This document shows positions 2,033 through 20,870 of a stretch of 62,368 nucleotides of DNA, one piece after another. The notes below the pieces were generated by a model. That model had not been told where the DNA came from. It worked only from the letters and a program-made list of their open reading frames with translations, and did not search any database. The stretch is from Alphaproteobacteria bacterium (lineage in GTDB: Bacteria > Pseudomonadota > Alphaproteobacteria > UBA8366 > GCA-2717185): the NCBI GenBank assembly GCA_040905865.1, contig JBBDQU010000004.1, positions 1-62,368 on the forward strand, written 5' to 3'. Each line of letters starts with the position of its first letter. Positions within the stretch are counted from its first letter, which is position 1. A program made the translations under genes and the position numbers.

Positions 2033-2842
2033 ATGATGGCCGATTCCGAAGACAAGCTCGTTCTCGTCGACCATGACGGATATGCCGCCATACTGACGTT
2101 GAACCGCCCGGCAAAGAAAAACGCCATGAGCGACGCGTTGCTGGAACAGCTTATCGCCGCCGTCCGCGCCGCCAATGCCGACGATGCCGTCCGCGCCATT
2201 ATTATCACAGGAGCCGGTAGCTGCTTCACTGCGGGCCGGGATATTTCACAGTTCAACCGGAAGGCCATCCTGCAGGATGGATCCGTCGACAGAACCGTCG
2301 ATATCTTCCTCGAAACCCTCACATTGCTCATGGAATCGCCGAAACCGACCATCGCCGCGATTCACGGGGTCGCGCTTGGCGGGGGGCAGGCTATGTCCCT
2401 TGCCTGCGATTTCGTTGTCGCCGAAGCCGGCGCGAGATTCGGCAATGTCGAAATGGCCTACGGATTCCCGGCCGCCATGAATATCGCCCTACTGACCCGG
2501 CAGGTCGGCCGCCGTATCGGCCTTGAAATCGCGATGACCGGCAACCTTTATACAGCGGAGCAGTATCACGGGTATGGCCTCGTCAACCGGCTGGCGGATG
2601 CCGGCAGGCTGATGGAGACAGCACGGGAATTTGCCGCCTGTTTTACCGACAAGGCGCCCTGGGCGGTGCGGCGCACGAAATCCACCTACCGGCTCGCGGA
2701 GGATATGGCGGTGCATGGCGCGATGAATTTCGGCAATCAGTTAAACCAGCTCCTGATGCTGAACAGCCAGATCGAAAGCATCCACTCGGGCGATTCCCGC
2801 GCGAAGGATGCAATTCAGCGCAATATTTCAAAAACGGAATGA
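2033..2842 (+). CDS. Enoyl-CoA hydratase/isomerase family protein
   Basis: A 269-residue crotonase-fold protein. The two oxyanion-hole segments are visible as CFTAGRDIS and HGVALGGGQA, and the acidic residue of the usual active-site loop is present in FGNVEMAYGFP. It would hydrate or isomerise an enoyl-CoA in beta-oxidation-like degradation; the substrate is not predictable. GGGAGAGTGA precedes the ATG. The CoA-transferase gene starts 9 bases after its stop, which points to one transcript. Confidence 0.88.
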   Translation: MMADSEDKLVLVDHDGYAAILTLNRPAKKNAMSDALLEQLIAAVRAANADDAVRAIIITGAGSCFTAGRDISQFNRKAILQDGSVDRTVDIFLETLTLLMESPKPTIAAIHGVALGGGQAMSLACDFVVAEAGARFGNVEMAYGFPAAMNIALLTRQVGRRIGLEIAMTGNLYTAEQYHGYGLVNRLADAGRLMETAREFAACFTDKAPWAVRRTKSTYRLAEDMAVHGAMNFGNQLNQLLMLNSQIESIHSGDSRAKDAIQRNISKTE

Positions 2843-2851
2843 CAAGAAACC

Positions 2852-4066
2852 GTGCCTGACCTGCCCGAAACAAAGCGTAAACCCCGCGCCTTCGAGGGCG
2901 TCCGCGTACTGGAATTCGCCGCGCTGATCGCCGGCCCCTCCTGCGGCAAATACCTGGCCGATCACGGCGCGGACGTGATCAAGGTGGAGCGTTTCCCGTT
3001 CGGTGACGTATCGCGCGCCTATAACCGGATGCATGCCCCGCGCAGCCCCATGTATATGCAGCAGAACGCCGGCAAGAGGGGTTTGTGCATCGACCTGAAA
3101 CAGCCGGAGGGTATCGAAGCGGCAAAGGCGCTGGCCGCCCGGGCCGATGTGGTGATCGAGGCGTTCACCCCCGGCGTCATGGACAAGCTCGGCCTGGGAT
3201 ATGACGATCTGAAGAAACTGAATCCTGCCATCATTCTGTGCTCAATCAGCGGTTTCGGCCAGACCGGACCGAATGCGAACCGACCGGGATATGCCCATAT
3301 CAGCCACGCGATGACGGGATGGCTGGCGATGCAGTTCCTGCACTGCGATCCGCCGCAGGTCCCGCGCGGGCCCGGCATCGCCATCGGCGACACGACGGCG
3401 GGGCTGACGGCGTTCGGCGCTGTTTCCGCCGCGCTTTACCGGAAAGCCATGACCGGCGAAGGCGATCATATCGACATCGCCCTGTTCGACAGCCTTTTCG
3501 GATCGAACGATTTCAGCCTTCAGACCTATCTGACCGCGAATGAAGTTGATGTCTTCTATCATCCTGTCCATGCCACGCGGGACGGCTATATCACCGCGTC
3601 CGTTGGTCCGGATCACCGCTCCTGGCAGGGTACCTGCATCGCCATGGGACAGCCGGAACTGGCGGACGACCCCCGGTTTTCCGATACGGCCAAGCTGGAG
3701 GAGAACATGGCGGAAGCCGCCGCGATCATGCGGGGCTGGTTGCAGTCGATGCGTTCGGAAGACGCCGAGCGAATCCTGACCGCCAATCACGTCGCCTGCG
3801 GCATCGTTCAGACCGTCGACAAGGCCGTCGATCAGCCCCAGGTGACCGCACGCAACCTGACCGTCACCGTCGACGATCCCGTCATGGGGCCGGTCCGGCA
3901 GATCAATTCAGCCTTCCGATACAAAAATGCGGAATCCGGCGTCACGGGCCCGGCGCCCCTGCTGGGCCAGCACAATGCGGAAATCCTGCGCGAGGACCTG
4001 GGATACGACGAGGACCGGATCCGCCGCCTTCAGGAAACGGGGGTCCTCAAGTCCGGGCCGGGCTGA
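2852..4066 (+). CDS. Family III CoA-transferase (CaiB/BaiF)
   Basis: A 404-residue protein starting at GTG. Family hallmarks are the N-terminal [30 protein letters not shown] block, the [10 protein letters not shown] segment near residue 131, and Asp180 in AIGDTTAG at the position of the catalytic Asp of formyl-CoA transferase. It would transfer CoA between an acyl-CoA and a free acid. It sits directly after the enoyl-CoA hydratase gene and is probably its pathway partner. The window has three further members of this family. Confidence 0.9.
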   Translation: [404 protein letters not shown]

Positions 4067-7955: not shown

Positions 7956-8432
7956 CTACTGCGTGCGGGGGTCGTCCGTTGGATCGACGTAGGTGAGGCC
8001 CCACGGACCGGTGCTGTTGAGTTGGATGACCGTCTCTTCCGCGGTATAGGCAAAATGGGCCATTCCTGGCGGGAACGCGAAGAAGCTTCCGGCTTCGAGC
8101 GCCCGGGCCTTATCGCGAACAATCTTTTCGCCCATGCCGATGTGGAACGTCCCCGAGACCACCGTGACGACCTCGGGTCGCGGATGGCGGTGGGGCGGCA
8201 GGACGTAATTCGCCGGCAGCTTCAGCCGGAGTGCGAATAACCCTTCTTCGCCAGGATTGCCATAGAGCGTCGCTGCCTTCGCTCCGTCCGGGATGGAAGC
8301 GGGACCCGGTCCCCATTCTATCTCTTTCGGCGTGGTCATGACGTGGTCGTCTTTCGCCGAAGCCGGTATGCCGTGCAATCCGAGAACCAAGGCAGCGGCG
8401 GCGATCGTCGATACGGATCGGGAAATATTCAT
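7956..8432 (-). CDS. Secreted cupin-domain protein
   Basis: About 158 residues from ATG at 8432, preceded by GAGGACGCC; the longer frame from 8447 lacks a ribosome site. A signal peptide runs to about residue 26 (ALVLGLHGIPASA), so the protein is periplasmic. The cupin metal site is visible as HRHPRPE, with a later His in PPGMAHF. Such small cupins bind one metal ion and may be dioxygenases or ligand binders; the reaction is unknown. It lies about 135 bases downstream of the ArsM-like selenoprotein gene on the same strand, with a hairpin between them. Confidence 0.82.
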   Translation of the reverse strand: MNISRSVSTIAAAALVLGLHGIPASAKDDHVMTTPKEIEWGPGPASIPDGAKAATLYGNPGEEGLFALRLKLPANYVLPPHRHPRPEVVTVVSGTFHIGMGEKIVRDKARALEAGSFFAFPPGMAHFAYTAEETVIQLNSTGPWGLTYVDPTDDPRTQ

Positions 8433-8534
8433 GGCGTCCTCTTTCATCGTTTCCGCAGGTGTTGCAGCATATGTCGCTGCATTATTTGTGACGCGACAAG
8501 TGATAAAGAGTTCCAGGAAAGTGAAAAGACGTCG

Positions 8535-8560
8535 CCCCGACCAATATTTATTGGTCGGGG
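8535..8560 (-). terminator. 12-bp perfect inverted repeat, likely terminator
   Basis: Arms CCCCGACCAATA (8535-8546) and TATTGGTCGGGG (8549-8560) are separated by two bases. Read on the minus strand, the hairpin begins 6 bases after the TAG at 8567 and is followed by a T-rich stretch (TCTTTTCACTTTCC). It probably ends or attenuates the sigma-to-methyltransferase transcript before the cupin gene. Its position supports TAG 8567, not TGA 8738, as the end of the upstream gene. Confidence 0.65.
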
Positions 8561-8566
8561 ACTCAC

Positions 8567-9355
8567 CTACTCGGGCTTCCGTGCGAGGAAGCTATAGCCA
8601 TATACTTCAAACAGGCGAGCCTTTTCTTCGCCACCTGCGCCGGAAAACGTATCCACCGGGTTGCTGATCCGAATATCGACGAAACTAGCGCGCGCCAGCA
8701 GTTCCCGCCAGCCTGCACACGGCAGGCCGCCAGCGATTCACGCAGTCCATAGGTCGACGTTGCGCGTGGCGGCCTCGGGCACCGGCTTGCCGGATGCAAT
8801 GTCGGCGAACTGCAAATGTCCCCCCGGACGCAGGACGCGGCGGATCTCGTCGAACACGCGTGCCTTGTCCGCACAGAGATTGATGACGCCGTTGCTGATC
8901 ACGACGTCGGCCCAGCCATCGTCCACCGGCAATTCCTCAAGCAGGCCTTCCCGGAACTCAACGTGGCCGAAGCCGAGGTGCTCCGTCGTCGACCGTGCCT
9001 TGTCGAGCATTTCTTCGGTCATGTCGATGCCGACGACCCGGCCGCCGGGGCCGACCTGACGCGCGGCGACGAAACAGTCGAAGCCGGCGCCGGAGCCCAA
9101 ATCGACGACCCGTTCGCCGTTTACCAGCGGACGGAGCGAGAAAGGATTGGCGACGCCGGCGAACGACTCCACCGCCGCGTCGGGTAAGGAGTCGACCGTC
9201 AGTGCATCGTATCCAAGATGCGCCGCGAGTGGCCGCCCTGTATGGAAGTGATAGGTACCGTGCGGGTCGACTGCGACGTCGCGGTACTTGCTCTTGACGG
9301 CCTCCCGCAGGATTTCGGCGTCGACCGGTAAGGCCACGTCTTTTGTGTCGCTCAT
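8567..9355 (-). CDS. ArsM-like SAM methyltransferase, probable selenoprotein
   Basis: 262 residues if the in-frame TGA at 8738-8740 is read as selenocysteine (residue 206), or 205 residues if it stops there. The SAM-binding Rossmann motif is VVDLGSGAGFD (83-93), followed by ISNGVINL (153-160) and VLRPGGHLQFADI. Up to the TGA the protein ends RNVDLWTA; homologues continue C-IAGGLP, and here the same frame continues IAGGLP, then WRELLARASFVDIRI and FEVYGYSFLARKPE, to TAG at 8567. Thus TGA replaces the conserved Cys that binds the arsenical or thiol in ArsM-type enzymes. The other family Cys position (GVGCPF in the neighbour's product) is Ala-Asn here. A SECIS-like hairpin lies at 8709-8729. It is 27 bases downstream of the related fused methyltransferase gene. 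A nonsense-mutated pseudogene is the main alternative. Confidence 0.75.
8709..8729 (-). promoter_or_regulatory. Candidate bacterial SECIS element
   Basis: On the minus strand an 8-bp stem (one G-U pair) with core CCTGC / GCAGG closes a 5-base loop CGTGT. The loop begins 17 bases after the TGA codon, so 16 bases separate them. Its second base is G, within the known rule for bacterial SECIS elements: apical loop roughly 16-37 bases after UGA with G in the first two loop positions. The bulged U of the E. coli fdhF element is not evident. Confidence 0.6.
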
Positions 9356-9382: not shown

Positions 9383-10645
9383 TCAAAAAGAGTCGGCGGA
9401 TTCCTCGGCGGCCAGACCGGCACGCTGTAAGGGCCGATGCGACCGGCGAACGGGGCGGTAGCGCCGGATCCAGTGATCCCATCCGACGCCAGCGGCGAGC
9501 ACGAGAAAACCGGCCGCTTCGATGGCCCGGTCGTAGCTGACGGTCATACTGTAGGCCACTGCGACCGCTCCCAGGATCGCCAGGAGCGTCGGGCCGATCC
9601 GCCGATGCTTGCGAATTCCCGCCGTGACGACGGCTGCCGCGGCAATGCTCAGCACAACGATGGTCGCAGCCCACGCGCCTTCGTCGATCATGAGCGTTGT
9701 CCCCATCGCCGCGAGGAGGGTGACCGCGGCGAGCGTGCCGTAGCAGGCGGCGAGCGCCAGAATCAGCGTCGCGAGTCCCCATAGACCCCGACGGCCAAGA
9801 CTGCGTGCGATCCGCCGCGGATGGACGCGCCGCGCCAGCACCGTGATCCAGGCGGGAGCGGCGGCGCGCCGGCGCATGCGAATCTCGAATGCCCGCGCCC
9901 CGAATCCCTCCGCAATCTCTCGGGTCTCGGCGCTCGGGCTGTGAGCGAAGTAATCGTAGCTCCGCACGATCTCGACGGCCTCGAACCCGGCGTCGCGGAA
10001 CATGTCGAGATAATCGTCGTCGACGGTGGCGCCGACCACGCATTCCGCCCACTGCTTCGGGTCGTCGAGACAGTCGGGTGTGACCGGGCGGTGGATCACG
10101 ATGTCGGCGATCTGCATCCGGCCGCCGGGTTTCAGCACCCGGAACATCTCCCGGGCGGCACGGCGCTTGTCGGGCACAAGATTGATTGCGCCGTTGCTGA
10201 TAATCGCATCGACGCTGGCGTCAGGCAAAGGTATGCGCTCTGCGTCGCCCTCGATCGCGTCGATATTATCGAGGCCGGCCCTGGCGGCGGTGTGGCGCAG
10301 CTTTTCGACCATCGCCGGGGTAATGTCCAGTGCATACACCTTGCCCGACGGGCCGACCGCCCGTGCCGCGATCATGCTGTCGACGCCGGCGCCCGATCCG
10401 ATATCAAGTATACGCTCGCCCGGGCGCGGCGTGCCGGCGTTGAAGGGACAACCCACGCCGGCGAACGAGTCGACGGCCTCTTCCGGCACCTCTTGCAGCA
10501 GCGACTCCGTATAGCCGGCGACCCGACATCCGTCGCGGCCGACCGGGAAATGGAAGTGTGCTTGTGGCGTCGCCGCGACCGCGGTGTACATGTCCTTTAC
10601 CGCTGCCGTGATCTCGTCTCGCGAGTAGCCCAAAGCCGCAACCAT
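9383..10645 (-). CDS. ArsM-like methyltransferase fused to a four-helix membrane domain
   Basis: 420 residues. Residues 1-260 form a class I SAM methyltransferase of the ArsM-like type: ILDIGSGAGVDS (79-90), ISNGAINLVPDK (149-160), VLKPGGRMQIADI, and Cys66 (GVGCPF) and Cys202 (QWAECVVGA) at ArsM cysteine positions. Residues 287-392 contain four hydrophobic helices with an ACYGTL motif, resembling MerC-like mercury or arsenic-associated membrane domains. The fusion suggests membrane-attached methylation of a metalloid or volatile product (inference). It is 44 bases downstream of the anti-sigma gene and 27 bases upstream of the related selenoprotein gene, so all probably share one transcript. 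Confidence 0.82.
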   Translation of the reverse strand: MVAALGYSRDEITAAVKDMYTAVAATPQAHFHFPVGRDGCRVAGYTESLLQEVPEEAVDSFAGVGCPFNAGTPRPGERILDIGSGAGVDSMIAARAVGPSGKVYALDITPAMVEKLRHTAARAGLDNIDAIEGDAERIPLPDASVDAIISNGAINLVPDKRRAAREMFRVLKPGGRMQIADIVIHRPVTPDCLDDPKQWAECVVGATVDDDYLDMFRDAGFEAVEIVRSYDYFAHSPSAETREIAEGFGARAFEIRMRRRAAAPAWITVLARRVHPRRIARSLGRRGLWGLATLILALAACYGTLAAVTLLAAMGTTLMIDEGAWAATIVVLSIAAAAVVTAGIRKHRRIGPTLLAILGAVAVAYSMTVSYDRAIEAAGFLVLAAGVGWDHWIRRYRPVRRSHRPLQRAGLAAEESADSF

Positions 10646-10689: not shown

Positions 10690-10947
10690 TCAGAAGCGCC
10701 CGATTATTGTCCGCACCCGCTCGCGCAGCCTCTCTGGCGCCGGCACCCGGGCGAGCTCGGCCAGCCTGGCCTTGAGCCGTCGTTCGAACTCGACCCGGCT
10801 GAAGCAGTCGCGGCATGCTTCGAGATGCCGGTCGATAACGATCTGGGCGTTCTCGTCCAGTTCGCCGTCGAGGTAGGTGAAGAGTTGTTCCATCACTTCT
10901 TCGCAGTTCAGCTCCCGGTGCTCGTGATGCTCATGATCCTTAGGCAT
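10690..10947 (-). CDS. RsrA-like zinc-binding anti-sigma factor
   Basis: 85 residues from ATG at 10947; the longer frame has no support. A zf-HC2/ZAS domain is present with His41, Cys45 and Cys48 (HLEACRDC) and an additional Cys15. The spacing (15, 41, 45, 48) is the same as that of Cys11, His37, Cys41 and Cys44 in Streptomyces RsrA, the thiol-redox-sensing anti-sigma of SigR. The N-terminus is His-rich (HEHHEH). It has no membrane segment, so it is cytoplasmic. The start codon overlaps the sigma gene stop by 8 bases, giving translational coupling. Oxidation or metalloid binding to the Cys/Zn centre could release the sigma factor (inference). Confidence 0.85.
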   Translation of the reverse strand: MPKDHEHHEHRELNCEEVMEQLFTYLDGELDENAQIVIDRHLEACRDCFSRVEFERRLKARLAELARVPAPERLRERVRTIIGRF

Positions 10948-11683
10948 TGTCACCGCCTTCCCGTAGGGGCTGCGCCGTCGCGCCGACCAGTCCGGCTTCC
11001 TTTCCTTGCGTCCAAAGCGACCGCTGCAGGCGGCTTCGCGCGCGCGCCAGCCGCGATCGGACCGTCCCGACCGGCAGTTCGAGCGCTTCGGCCGTTTCGG
11101 CATAGGACCACCCCTCAAGCTCGACCATGACCATGACGACGCGATAGGGCTCGGGAAGGGCGTCGAACGCCCGCTTGAGGTCCTCCGCGAGCAGCTTGTT
11201 GAGAAGCGTATGCTCCGGGGTCCCCCACCACAGAAGAAACGGCTGGTGCAAACGGCGGAACAGCGAAAATTCCTCTTCGGGACCGTCCTGCGCCGCGCGA
11301 GCCGGAGGTTCGGTCGTCAAGCGGGTGCGGCGGCGTCGCCAGTCGCTGATGAAGGTGTTGGTCAGAATGCGAAGCGTCCATACGGGGAAAGTCCGGCGGT
11401 CACGCAGCTTTGGCAGCGCCTCCCATGCCTTGGCGACGCTCTCCGCGACGAGATCCTCCGCGTCCGGTCCGTTGCGCGTCAGCCTCAGCGCTGTGCCGTA
11501 CAGTCGGTCCATCAGCTTCGAAACCTCGACCTCGAAGAACGCGCGGGCGGTACGGCGATCCTCGTCGCACTGACTATCCGTGGGAAGCTCTCTCTCGCCA
11601 CGGTTTGGAAGCATGCGGTCGGAGCCGGATGGTTTCCCGTTCCTGCGTCTCTGCCTGTATCTGAGGGCAGCGCCATTGGTCAT
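10940..11683 (-). CDS. ECF RNA polymerase sigma factor, SigR-like
   Basis: About 247 residues from ATG at 11683; the open frame extends to 11791 and ATG 11614 is also possible. Region 2 is seen as LYGTALRLTRNGPDAEDLV followed by TLRILTNTFISDWRRRR, close to the ILTNTYI pattern of SigR. Region 4 is seen as LPEPYRVVMVMVELEGWSY followed by LPVGTVRSRLARARS. It should direct polymerase to its own regulon, probably including the downstream methyltransferases. It is coupled to the RsrA-like anti-sigma gene and heads the minus-strand cluster. No own-type promoter could be defined by eye. Confidence 0.85.
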   Translation of the reverse strand: MTNGAALRYRQRRRNGKPSGSDRMLPNRGERELPTDSQCDEDRRTARAFFEVEVSKLMDRLYGTALRLTRNGPDAEDLVAESVAKAWEALPKLRDRRTFPVWTLRILTNTFISDWRRRRTRLTTEPPARAAQDGPEEEFSLFRRLHQPFLLWWGTPEHTLLNKLLAEDLKRAFDALPEPYRVVMVMVELEGWSYAETAEALELPVGTVRSRLARARSRLQRSLWTQGKEAGLVGATAQPLREGGDNA

Positions 11684-11819
11684 ACTGAACCTGTTTCCTT
11701 TCTCGCCAACCAAGACGTATCCCGCTGCTGAAAGTTCCCAAAAACATCGGATGCCTTCGACGGGGAGATGGCCGATCGGTCTGCCTGGCAACGGAACAGC
11801 GTGAAGCGCATCTCGCCGT

Positions 11820-20433: not shown

Positions 20434-20524
20434 GGCCGCATAATGTATCCGATTCGAACGCTGTAAAGCCCCCTATTATACCGACAGGCCTTTTTTCCCC
20501 GGCGCGGAACGCCTATATTGAACC

Positions 20525-20815
20525 TGTCGGGCAACCGACTATGGCGTTACAGGGCTTTGTAGAATAAGCGTTGCGGACCCGGGGGCGGTACCCGGCGCCT
20601 CCACCAGTCTCCCCTTCTCCGGAAGGGATCACGGGGGCGAAATAGGATCGACGCGCGTGGTAAAAACCTGGTCTGCGCCCGGCATGGTACCGCCGATATC
20701 GGACCAATTCGCTAATTGCGAACGATAACTTTGCGGGCGAAGCCCGTCTCGCTGCTTAGTCTGACTAAGTAAGCGCGGCCCGGGGGGCGCCGGGCAACAG
20801 AAGCCCCCCACCTGT
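20525..20815 (+). ncRNA. ssrA: Circularly permuted two-piece tmRNA
   Basis: The acceptor piece (about 20525-20606) comes first and ends CGCCTCC-ACCA at 20596-20606; the coding piece starts GGGGGCG at 20633. These 7-base strands form the tRNA-like acceptor stem with one G-U pair, and a T-arm-like CCCGGGGGCGGTACCCGG precedes the CCA end. The 26 bases between are the excised spacer. The tag frame (20718-20759) begins with GCG resume codon and reads ANDNFAGEARLAA then TAG. This permuted order is the alphaproteobacterial type. The outer ends are approximate. The SspB adaptor gene follows directly. Confidence 0.92.
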
Positions 20816-20870
20816 TTCTGGCCGGCTGCACGCCGGCTGTCGTGTAATGAGAAGGGTATCCCGGAACGTC

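Follow-up and report, generated by a model that had tools for sequence, protein, structure and literature searches.

Codon 206 of an ArsM-like methyltransferase gene on the minus strand of the window, i.e., the whole stretch of 62,368 nucleotides analysed here, almost certainly specifies insertion of selenocysteine (Sec). The gene (8567..9355) is a single frame of 262 codons, in which 205 codons precede an in-frame TGA (8738..8740, minus strand) and 56 follow it before a TAG stop at 8567-8569; the protein product would comprise 262 residues and carry Sec at position 206. In the standard code TGA means stop, and the list of open reading frames for the window contains a 205-residue frame ending at this codon, as standard gene calling would have it, so that genes of this kind are easily overlooked or cut short. 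The codon stands in the context WTA-U-IAGGLP, and Sec206 aligns with Cys224 of CmArsM when compared with CmArsM chains by phmmer. An earlier note on this DNA had placed the TGA at a conserved cysteine, let the frame run on for 56 codons to the TAG and proposed Sec. The observations were confirmed: alignment revealed the exchange of Cys and Sec at residue 206, where homologues carry Cys, the continuation is conserved among relatives, and the Sec reading is strongly supported by the Sec machinery, the SECIS hairpin, the Cys homologues, the 84 TGA and three TAG codons among 87 loci, the matching CUA anticodon and the constraint past the stop. Taken as a whole, we consider it likely that the gene encodes a selenoprotein, a methyltransferase of ArsM fold, in which Sec206 and Cys161 act on a soft substrate.

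In profile searches the protein came out as a SAM methyltransferase with ArsM as its nearest family. The three best structure matches (VIA-align) of an AlphaFold2 model calculated with Cys in place of Sec (pLDDT 91.3, pTM 0.90) are ArsM proteins, with Z values of 24.8-25.7 over 209-222 residues and an rmsd of 2.2-2.4, followed by a first non-ArsM structure with Z 21.2. The product is thus very probably a SAM methyltransferase, and the term ArsM-like, as used in the earlier note, is right for both fold and sequence. The cut-off of the ArsM family NF008823 was missed (218.6 vs. 263 bits), whereas three annotated ArsM proteins that keep the Cys set scored 351-366 bits. In the phmmer alignment with CmArsM, from which our numbering was counted, Val68 falls on Cys72, Gly156 on Cys174 and Cys161 on Ser179, such that Val68, Gly156 and Sec206 occupy the places of the arsenite-binding cysteines 72, 174 and 224. 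These three cysteines are conserved in all ArsM sequences of the set given in PMC5552862.

We followed these positions in 87 loci, made up of the 80 best among 256 relatives found in species genomes and seven from the window's family, its own gene included; they lie on 85 distinct contigs, since L065 and L101 as well as L083 and L103 each share a contig, judged by its length, and an identical protein. Two culturable species, Desertibaculum subflavum and Enhydrobacter aerosaccus, are among the carriers. Val and Gly occupy the Cys72 and Cys174 places in 87/87 loci, residue 206 is invariant, and Cys161, located five residues past the Cys174 place and likewise found in 87/87, is the only other invariant cysteine of the clade; a Cys form of the clade may be among the other 176 of the 256 relatives. 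Classical ArsM was rejected as a family label on the grounds of the missed cut-off and the invariant replacement of two of the three ligand cysteines. Judged by sequence, the clade is a separate subfamily beside ArsM, with CmArsM and the annotated ArsM proteins, as distinct from published Sec-ArsM sequences, serving as the standard of comparison.

SelB-dependent insertion of Sec at a UGA codon followed by a hairpin is established bacterial biology. In the mechanism that we propose, SelB together with Sec-tRNA of anticodon UCA would recognise the hairpin immediately downstream of the UGA, inserting Sec206 into a class I SAM-dependent methyltransferase of ArsM fold, where it would stand in place of the arsenic ligand Cys224. 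The alignment with ArsM suggests that Sec206, helped by Cys161, may bind or activate a soft, thiophilic substrate, for which a trivalent, perhaps already methylated arsenical as well as another metalloid, chalcogen or thiol species are candidates; the methyl group of SAM would be passed to this substrate or a species bound to it, and the Sec206/Cys161 pair may form a selenenylsulfide when oxidised. Such assignments of substrate and of a catalytic role for Sec206 are predictions, among which a soft metalloid or a chalcogen/thiol species as substrate appears rather probable.

The strongest competitor is a true Sec-dependent arsenite methyltransferase, holding As(III) on Sec206, Cys161 and small thiols despite the loss of Cys72 and Cys174. 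It is consistent with ArsM as nearest structures, with the exact coincidence of Sec and Cys224, with the fusion of a MerC-like domain of metal-transport type to the neighbouring paralogue, and with the listing of UxxG Sec-ArsM as a selenoprotein family in PMC13188914. On the other hand, two of the three cysteines conserved in the ArsM set of PMC5552862 are invariantly absent, the score stays below the ArsM cut-off and no ars gene is present among the seven neighbouring window proteins scanned. For these same reasons the arsenic side of the earlier proposal, with Sec as the arsenic-reactive residue of the enzyme, is its weaker part, and arsenite itself is a possible but weaker choice of substrate that we regard as unlikely.

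To our knowledge, methyltransferases are few among selenoproteins. In this clade two usually intermixed roles come apart: most of the arsenic ligands are gone and Sec is nevertheless kept in 87/87 loci, from which it follows that Sec does more than complete the classical three-cysteine arsenite site. We read the enzyme as a Sec-dependent SAM methyltransferase whose soft, thiophilic substrate need not be arsenite.

Of the 87 loci (own locus included), 84 have TGA at codon 206 and three have TAG, within an otherwise open frame. All three TAG loci stem from Geodermatophilaceae, namely Modestobacter sp. DSM 44400 and two Blastococcus, and the tRNA-Sec of each of these genomes has the anticodon CTA (CUA). 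Furthermore, an internal TAG is present in 4/4 formate dehydrogenase genes found in these same genomes (G011, G012, G013). A stop codon that tracks the anticodon of tRNA-Sec is hardly explicable except by Sec, and the switch from UGA to UAG renders the assignment unusually secure while adding one more gene to those of UAG-Sec organisms. The same observations bear on the view that the TGA is a nonsense mutation in a pseudogene, or a real stop behind a 205-residue enzyme, with the sequence past the TGA as a relic. The standard meaning of TGA and the 205-residue frame ending there would agree with this, as would the somewhat lower identity of the window's own protein to the other rows past the codon (65%, compared with 71% ahead of it). 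However, a stop stands at exactly this codon in 87/87 loci, a conserved continuation of 55-67 residues follows in the 84 TGA loci, TAG occurs only in genomes with CUA tRNA-Sec, a switch for which no mutational process accounts, and pN/pS, pooled from 37 close pairs of relatives with 86-99.9% identity that do not include the window's own gene, amounts to 0.146 ahead of the codon and 0.141 past it. The codon/anticodon switch, the 87/87 stops and the constraint past the codon led us to reject the pseudogene, which we deem highly improbable.

The genome from which the window derives possesses adjoining selB (461 bits) and selA (563 bits) genes and a selD gene (300 bits), all above cut-off in profile searches, as well as a tRNA-Sec gene (68 bits) with anticodon TCA (UCA); selA, selB, selC and selD, for which the earlier note had asked to search the genome, are therefore all present. 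Decoding of UGA by near-cognate suppression or in a code with UGA as Trp or Gly, for which nothing speaks beyond the open frame, has a negligible chance of being correct in view of the UCA tRNA-Sec with selA, selB and selD, of Cys instead of Trp or Gly as the aligned residue in homologues, and of TAG in genomes with CUA tRNA-Sec.

The putative SECIS element is located at 8709..8729 on the minus strand and consists of a stem of eight pairs (one of them G-U) and the loop CGUGU, which starts 16 nt after the UGA; the earlier note had given the same coordinates and loop. It fits the bSECIS rules given in PMC13188914, i.e., a loop of 3-9 nt with G in one of the first two places, a stem of 4-16 pairs, a spacing of 16-37 nt and a minimum free energy of -7.5 or below. 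The 51 nt from the TGA onwards fold with -25.5 kcal/mol (z -1.80; 9/200 shuffles as good), the minimum-energy fold lengthening the stem and pairing part of the loop differently. Compared with synonymous recodings of the same residues, the hairpin of the window reaches z -2.18, with 1 in 200 recodings as stable. Over 84 sequences the mean z against such recodings is -0.67, compared with -0.05 to -0.56 for eight control stretches elsewhere in these genes; the folding-energy excess across the set is modest. The adopted hairpin was picked by applying the bSECIS rules to the sequence of the window itself, a choice that gives it an advantage in slid controls.

The loop CGUGY recurs after the TGA, and 95.5% of the cells of seven pairs are standard in 82 distinct sequences, with a mean of 6.7 of the seven SECIS pairs and a minimum of five in the Sec set. 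Pair 18-26, which joins position 3 of codon 211 to position 2 of codon 214, occurs as GC in 58, UA in 23 and GU in one sequence; in most rows the change in codon 211 leaves Leu unaltered (CTG/CTT). Double-sided changes were counted in 24 cells as opposed to 7.2 in shuffles, a total reached by 0/500, whereas the count of doubly changed pairs (277/500) and that of pair types (500/500) do not exceed shuffles. On the tree, the covarying pair accounts for about four changes of each base and one contrast pair on well-supported branches, not enough for a sign test. The hairpin preferred by RNAalifold (columns 6-25) was set aside because it contains no double changes. These mixed results from energy and covariation give the SECIS hairpin good support in the window and moderate support for the set as a whole. 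Of the nine Cys homologues that were checked, seven match one or two of the seven pairs and two match five and six. The loop CGUGY is found again in six Actinobacterial loci, the three TAG loci included, with four of five pairs checked; by our own reading, the hairpin appears to be shifted there by 3 nt.

With respect to distribution, 385 genomes of the class yielded eight full-length matches (428-469 bits), each with one TGA, followed by 11 matches of 158-212 bits without the stop; at least five of the eight lie on contigs that match one of the 87 loci in length, so that the two sets overlap. In 398 genomes of the phylum, searched at E 1e-60, the hits were confined to the window's genome, with the paralogue in the window as a further match, and a single open homologue (241 bits), so that no match above 241 bits lacks the stop in the 385 class and 398 phylum genomes. 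The gene selA is present in 8/8 class genomes containing the methyltransferase gene vs. 56/385 overall (hypergeometric 1.3e-7, kinship ignored). A formate dehydrogenase above the TIGR01553 cut-off is encoded in only one of these eight genomes, where it carries a TGA, and none of the formate dehydrogenase-like genes of the window's genome has an internal stop. In seven of the 87 loci (L021, L053, L058, L061, L062, L068 and L082) selA, selB or selD is situated within 3 kb of the gene; ten Sel proteins near the gene were checked by profile, two of which are SelB fragments below cut-off because the locus ends there. Within the window's family, selA is present in 11/11 genomes but a full-length relative in only 7/11, several of these genomes being incomplete. 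The gene is consequently not the sole reason for the Sec machinery there, and the idea that the machinery is kept on its account was dismissed as a general explanation. More tentatively, and with some reserve, we propose a widespread, Sec-only subfamily in which Sec206/Cys161 might replace the cysteine site of ArsM, the substrate might be other than arsenite (e.g., methylated arsenicals, selenide or another chalcogenide or thiol) and the enzyme might rank among the main users of the Sec machinery wherever a genome lacks a matching Sec formate dehydrogenase.

The genes around the Sec gene share its strand in the order ECF sigma factor, zf-HC2 protein, Cys paralogue fused to MerC, Sec gene and cupin, all coordinates referring to the minus strand. 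The ECF-type sigma factor (10940..11791) was assigned by Pfam sigma-70 regions 2 and 4; its homologues align from residue 73-83, so the true start is probably downstream of the listed one. The zf-HC2 protein (10690..11118; Pfam PF13490), whose true start is unsure, is a probable anti-sigma factor on account of its profile and the conserved order. Profiles identify the gene at 9383..10645 as an ArsM-like methyltransferase paralogue in which Cys stands at the Sec site (WAECVVGA) and to which a MerC-like domain is fused, at about residues 290-391. The cupin-domain protein encoded downstream (7956..8447), whose link to the system is uncertain, did not turn up in any of the other 86 loci. The same trio of sigma factor, zf-HC2 protein and fused paralogue stands ahead of the Sec gene in two further loci, L030 from Alphaproteobacteria and L028 from Betaproteobacteria, a separate MerC-like open reading frame lies beside it in L033, and a Chelatococcus plasmid combines sigma factor, zf-HC2 protein and a Cys methyltransferase, while neighbours vary in most other loci. 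By Pfam, two of the neighbours would point to metal or redox sensing, and the cluster may be under ECF-sigma control. A recurrent small open reading frame near the Sec gene in four of the 87 loci (L043, L056, L074, L081) looks DsrE-type in our reading. Elsewhere in the window, ARAGORN reported a tmRNA gene on the plus strand (20512-20850) with a starred (permuted-type) label and the tag ANDNFAGEARLAA.

Just beyond the TAG stop a strong hairpin (8535..8560, minus strand) may represent the 3' end of the message. The 51 nt past the TAG fold with -21.4 kcal/mol, matched by 0/200 shuffles. The hairpin mentioned in the earlier note is therefore real, but its description as terminator-like is only partly right since no T-run (U-run in the message) follows directly and the terminator scan does not list it.

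Sec-containing ArsM proteins as such are already known: the UxxG form is listed under 'experimentally verified' in PMC13188914, 41 such selenoproteins in 39 organisms are counted in PMC5029168, and such proteins had been in print earlier (PMC2398784). What we did not find in the literature searched is a clade with the changed ligand set or a UAG form of it. Our protein has the ArsM fold, the SAM domain, Sec at the Cys224 place and the UxxG motif (here UIAG) in common with Sec-ArsM (PRK11873/NF008823); it differs from the family NF008823 by its score below cut-off, by Val and Gly instead of Cys72 and Cys174 and by Cys161, as judged against CmArsM and the annotated ArsM proteins. UxxG is also listed in PMC13188914 for three fused selenoproteins, NF041537 (ArsM/AhpD), NF041536 (ArsM/DUF2284) and NF047649 (methyltransferase/UXPK-star). 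Their methyltransferase part aligns over about 220 residues, with scores of 222, 192 and 196 bits against cut-offs of 510, 575 and 460 bits, respectively, but the protein described here has no second domain and a single Sec, and the matches end near residue 231. In Geodermatophilaceae, UAG-encoded Sec is known for formate dehydrogenase, UGSC proteins and AhpC (PMC5330540). The ArsM-like gene of this family resembles these in obtaining Sec by UAG and a CUA tRNA-Sec, and an ArsM-like protein was not found among the UAG-encoded selenoproteins named there.

The closest Cys-containing sisters are the paralogue in the window, the protein of the Chelatococcus plasmid (L158) and those of haloarchaeal plasmids (L157, L161), the latter two genes (2389-3774 and 926-2265, respectively) adjoining OsmC-family genes. 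Among the loci inspected, these sisters together with the paralogues of L028 and L030 match one to five of the seven SECIS pairs, compared with five to seven in the Sec set. They share Val and Gly with the Sec clade but differ from it by Cys instead of Sec at residue 206 and by the absence of Cys161, which suggests that the arsenite site was lost in the wider group and that Sec together with Cys161 marks this clade.
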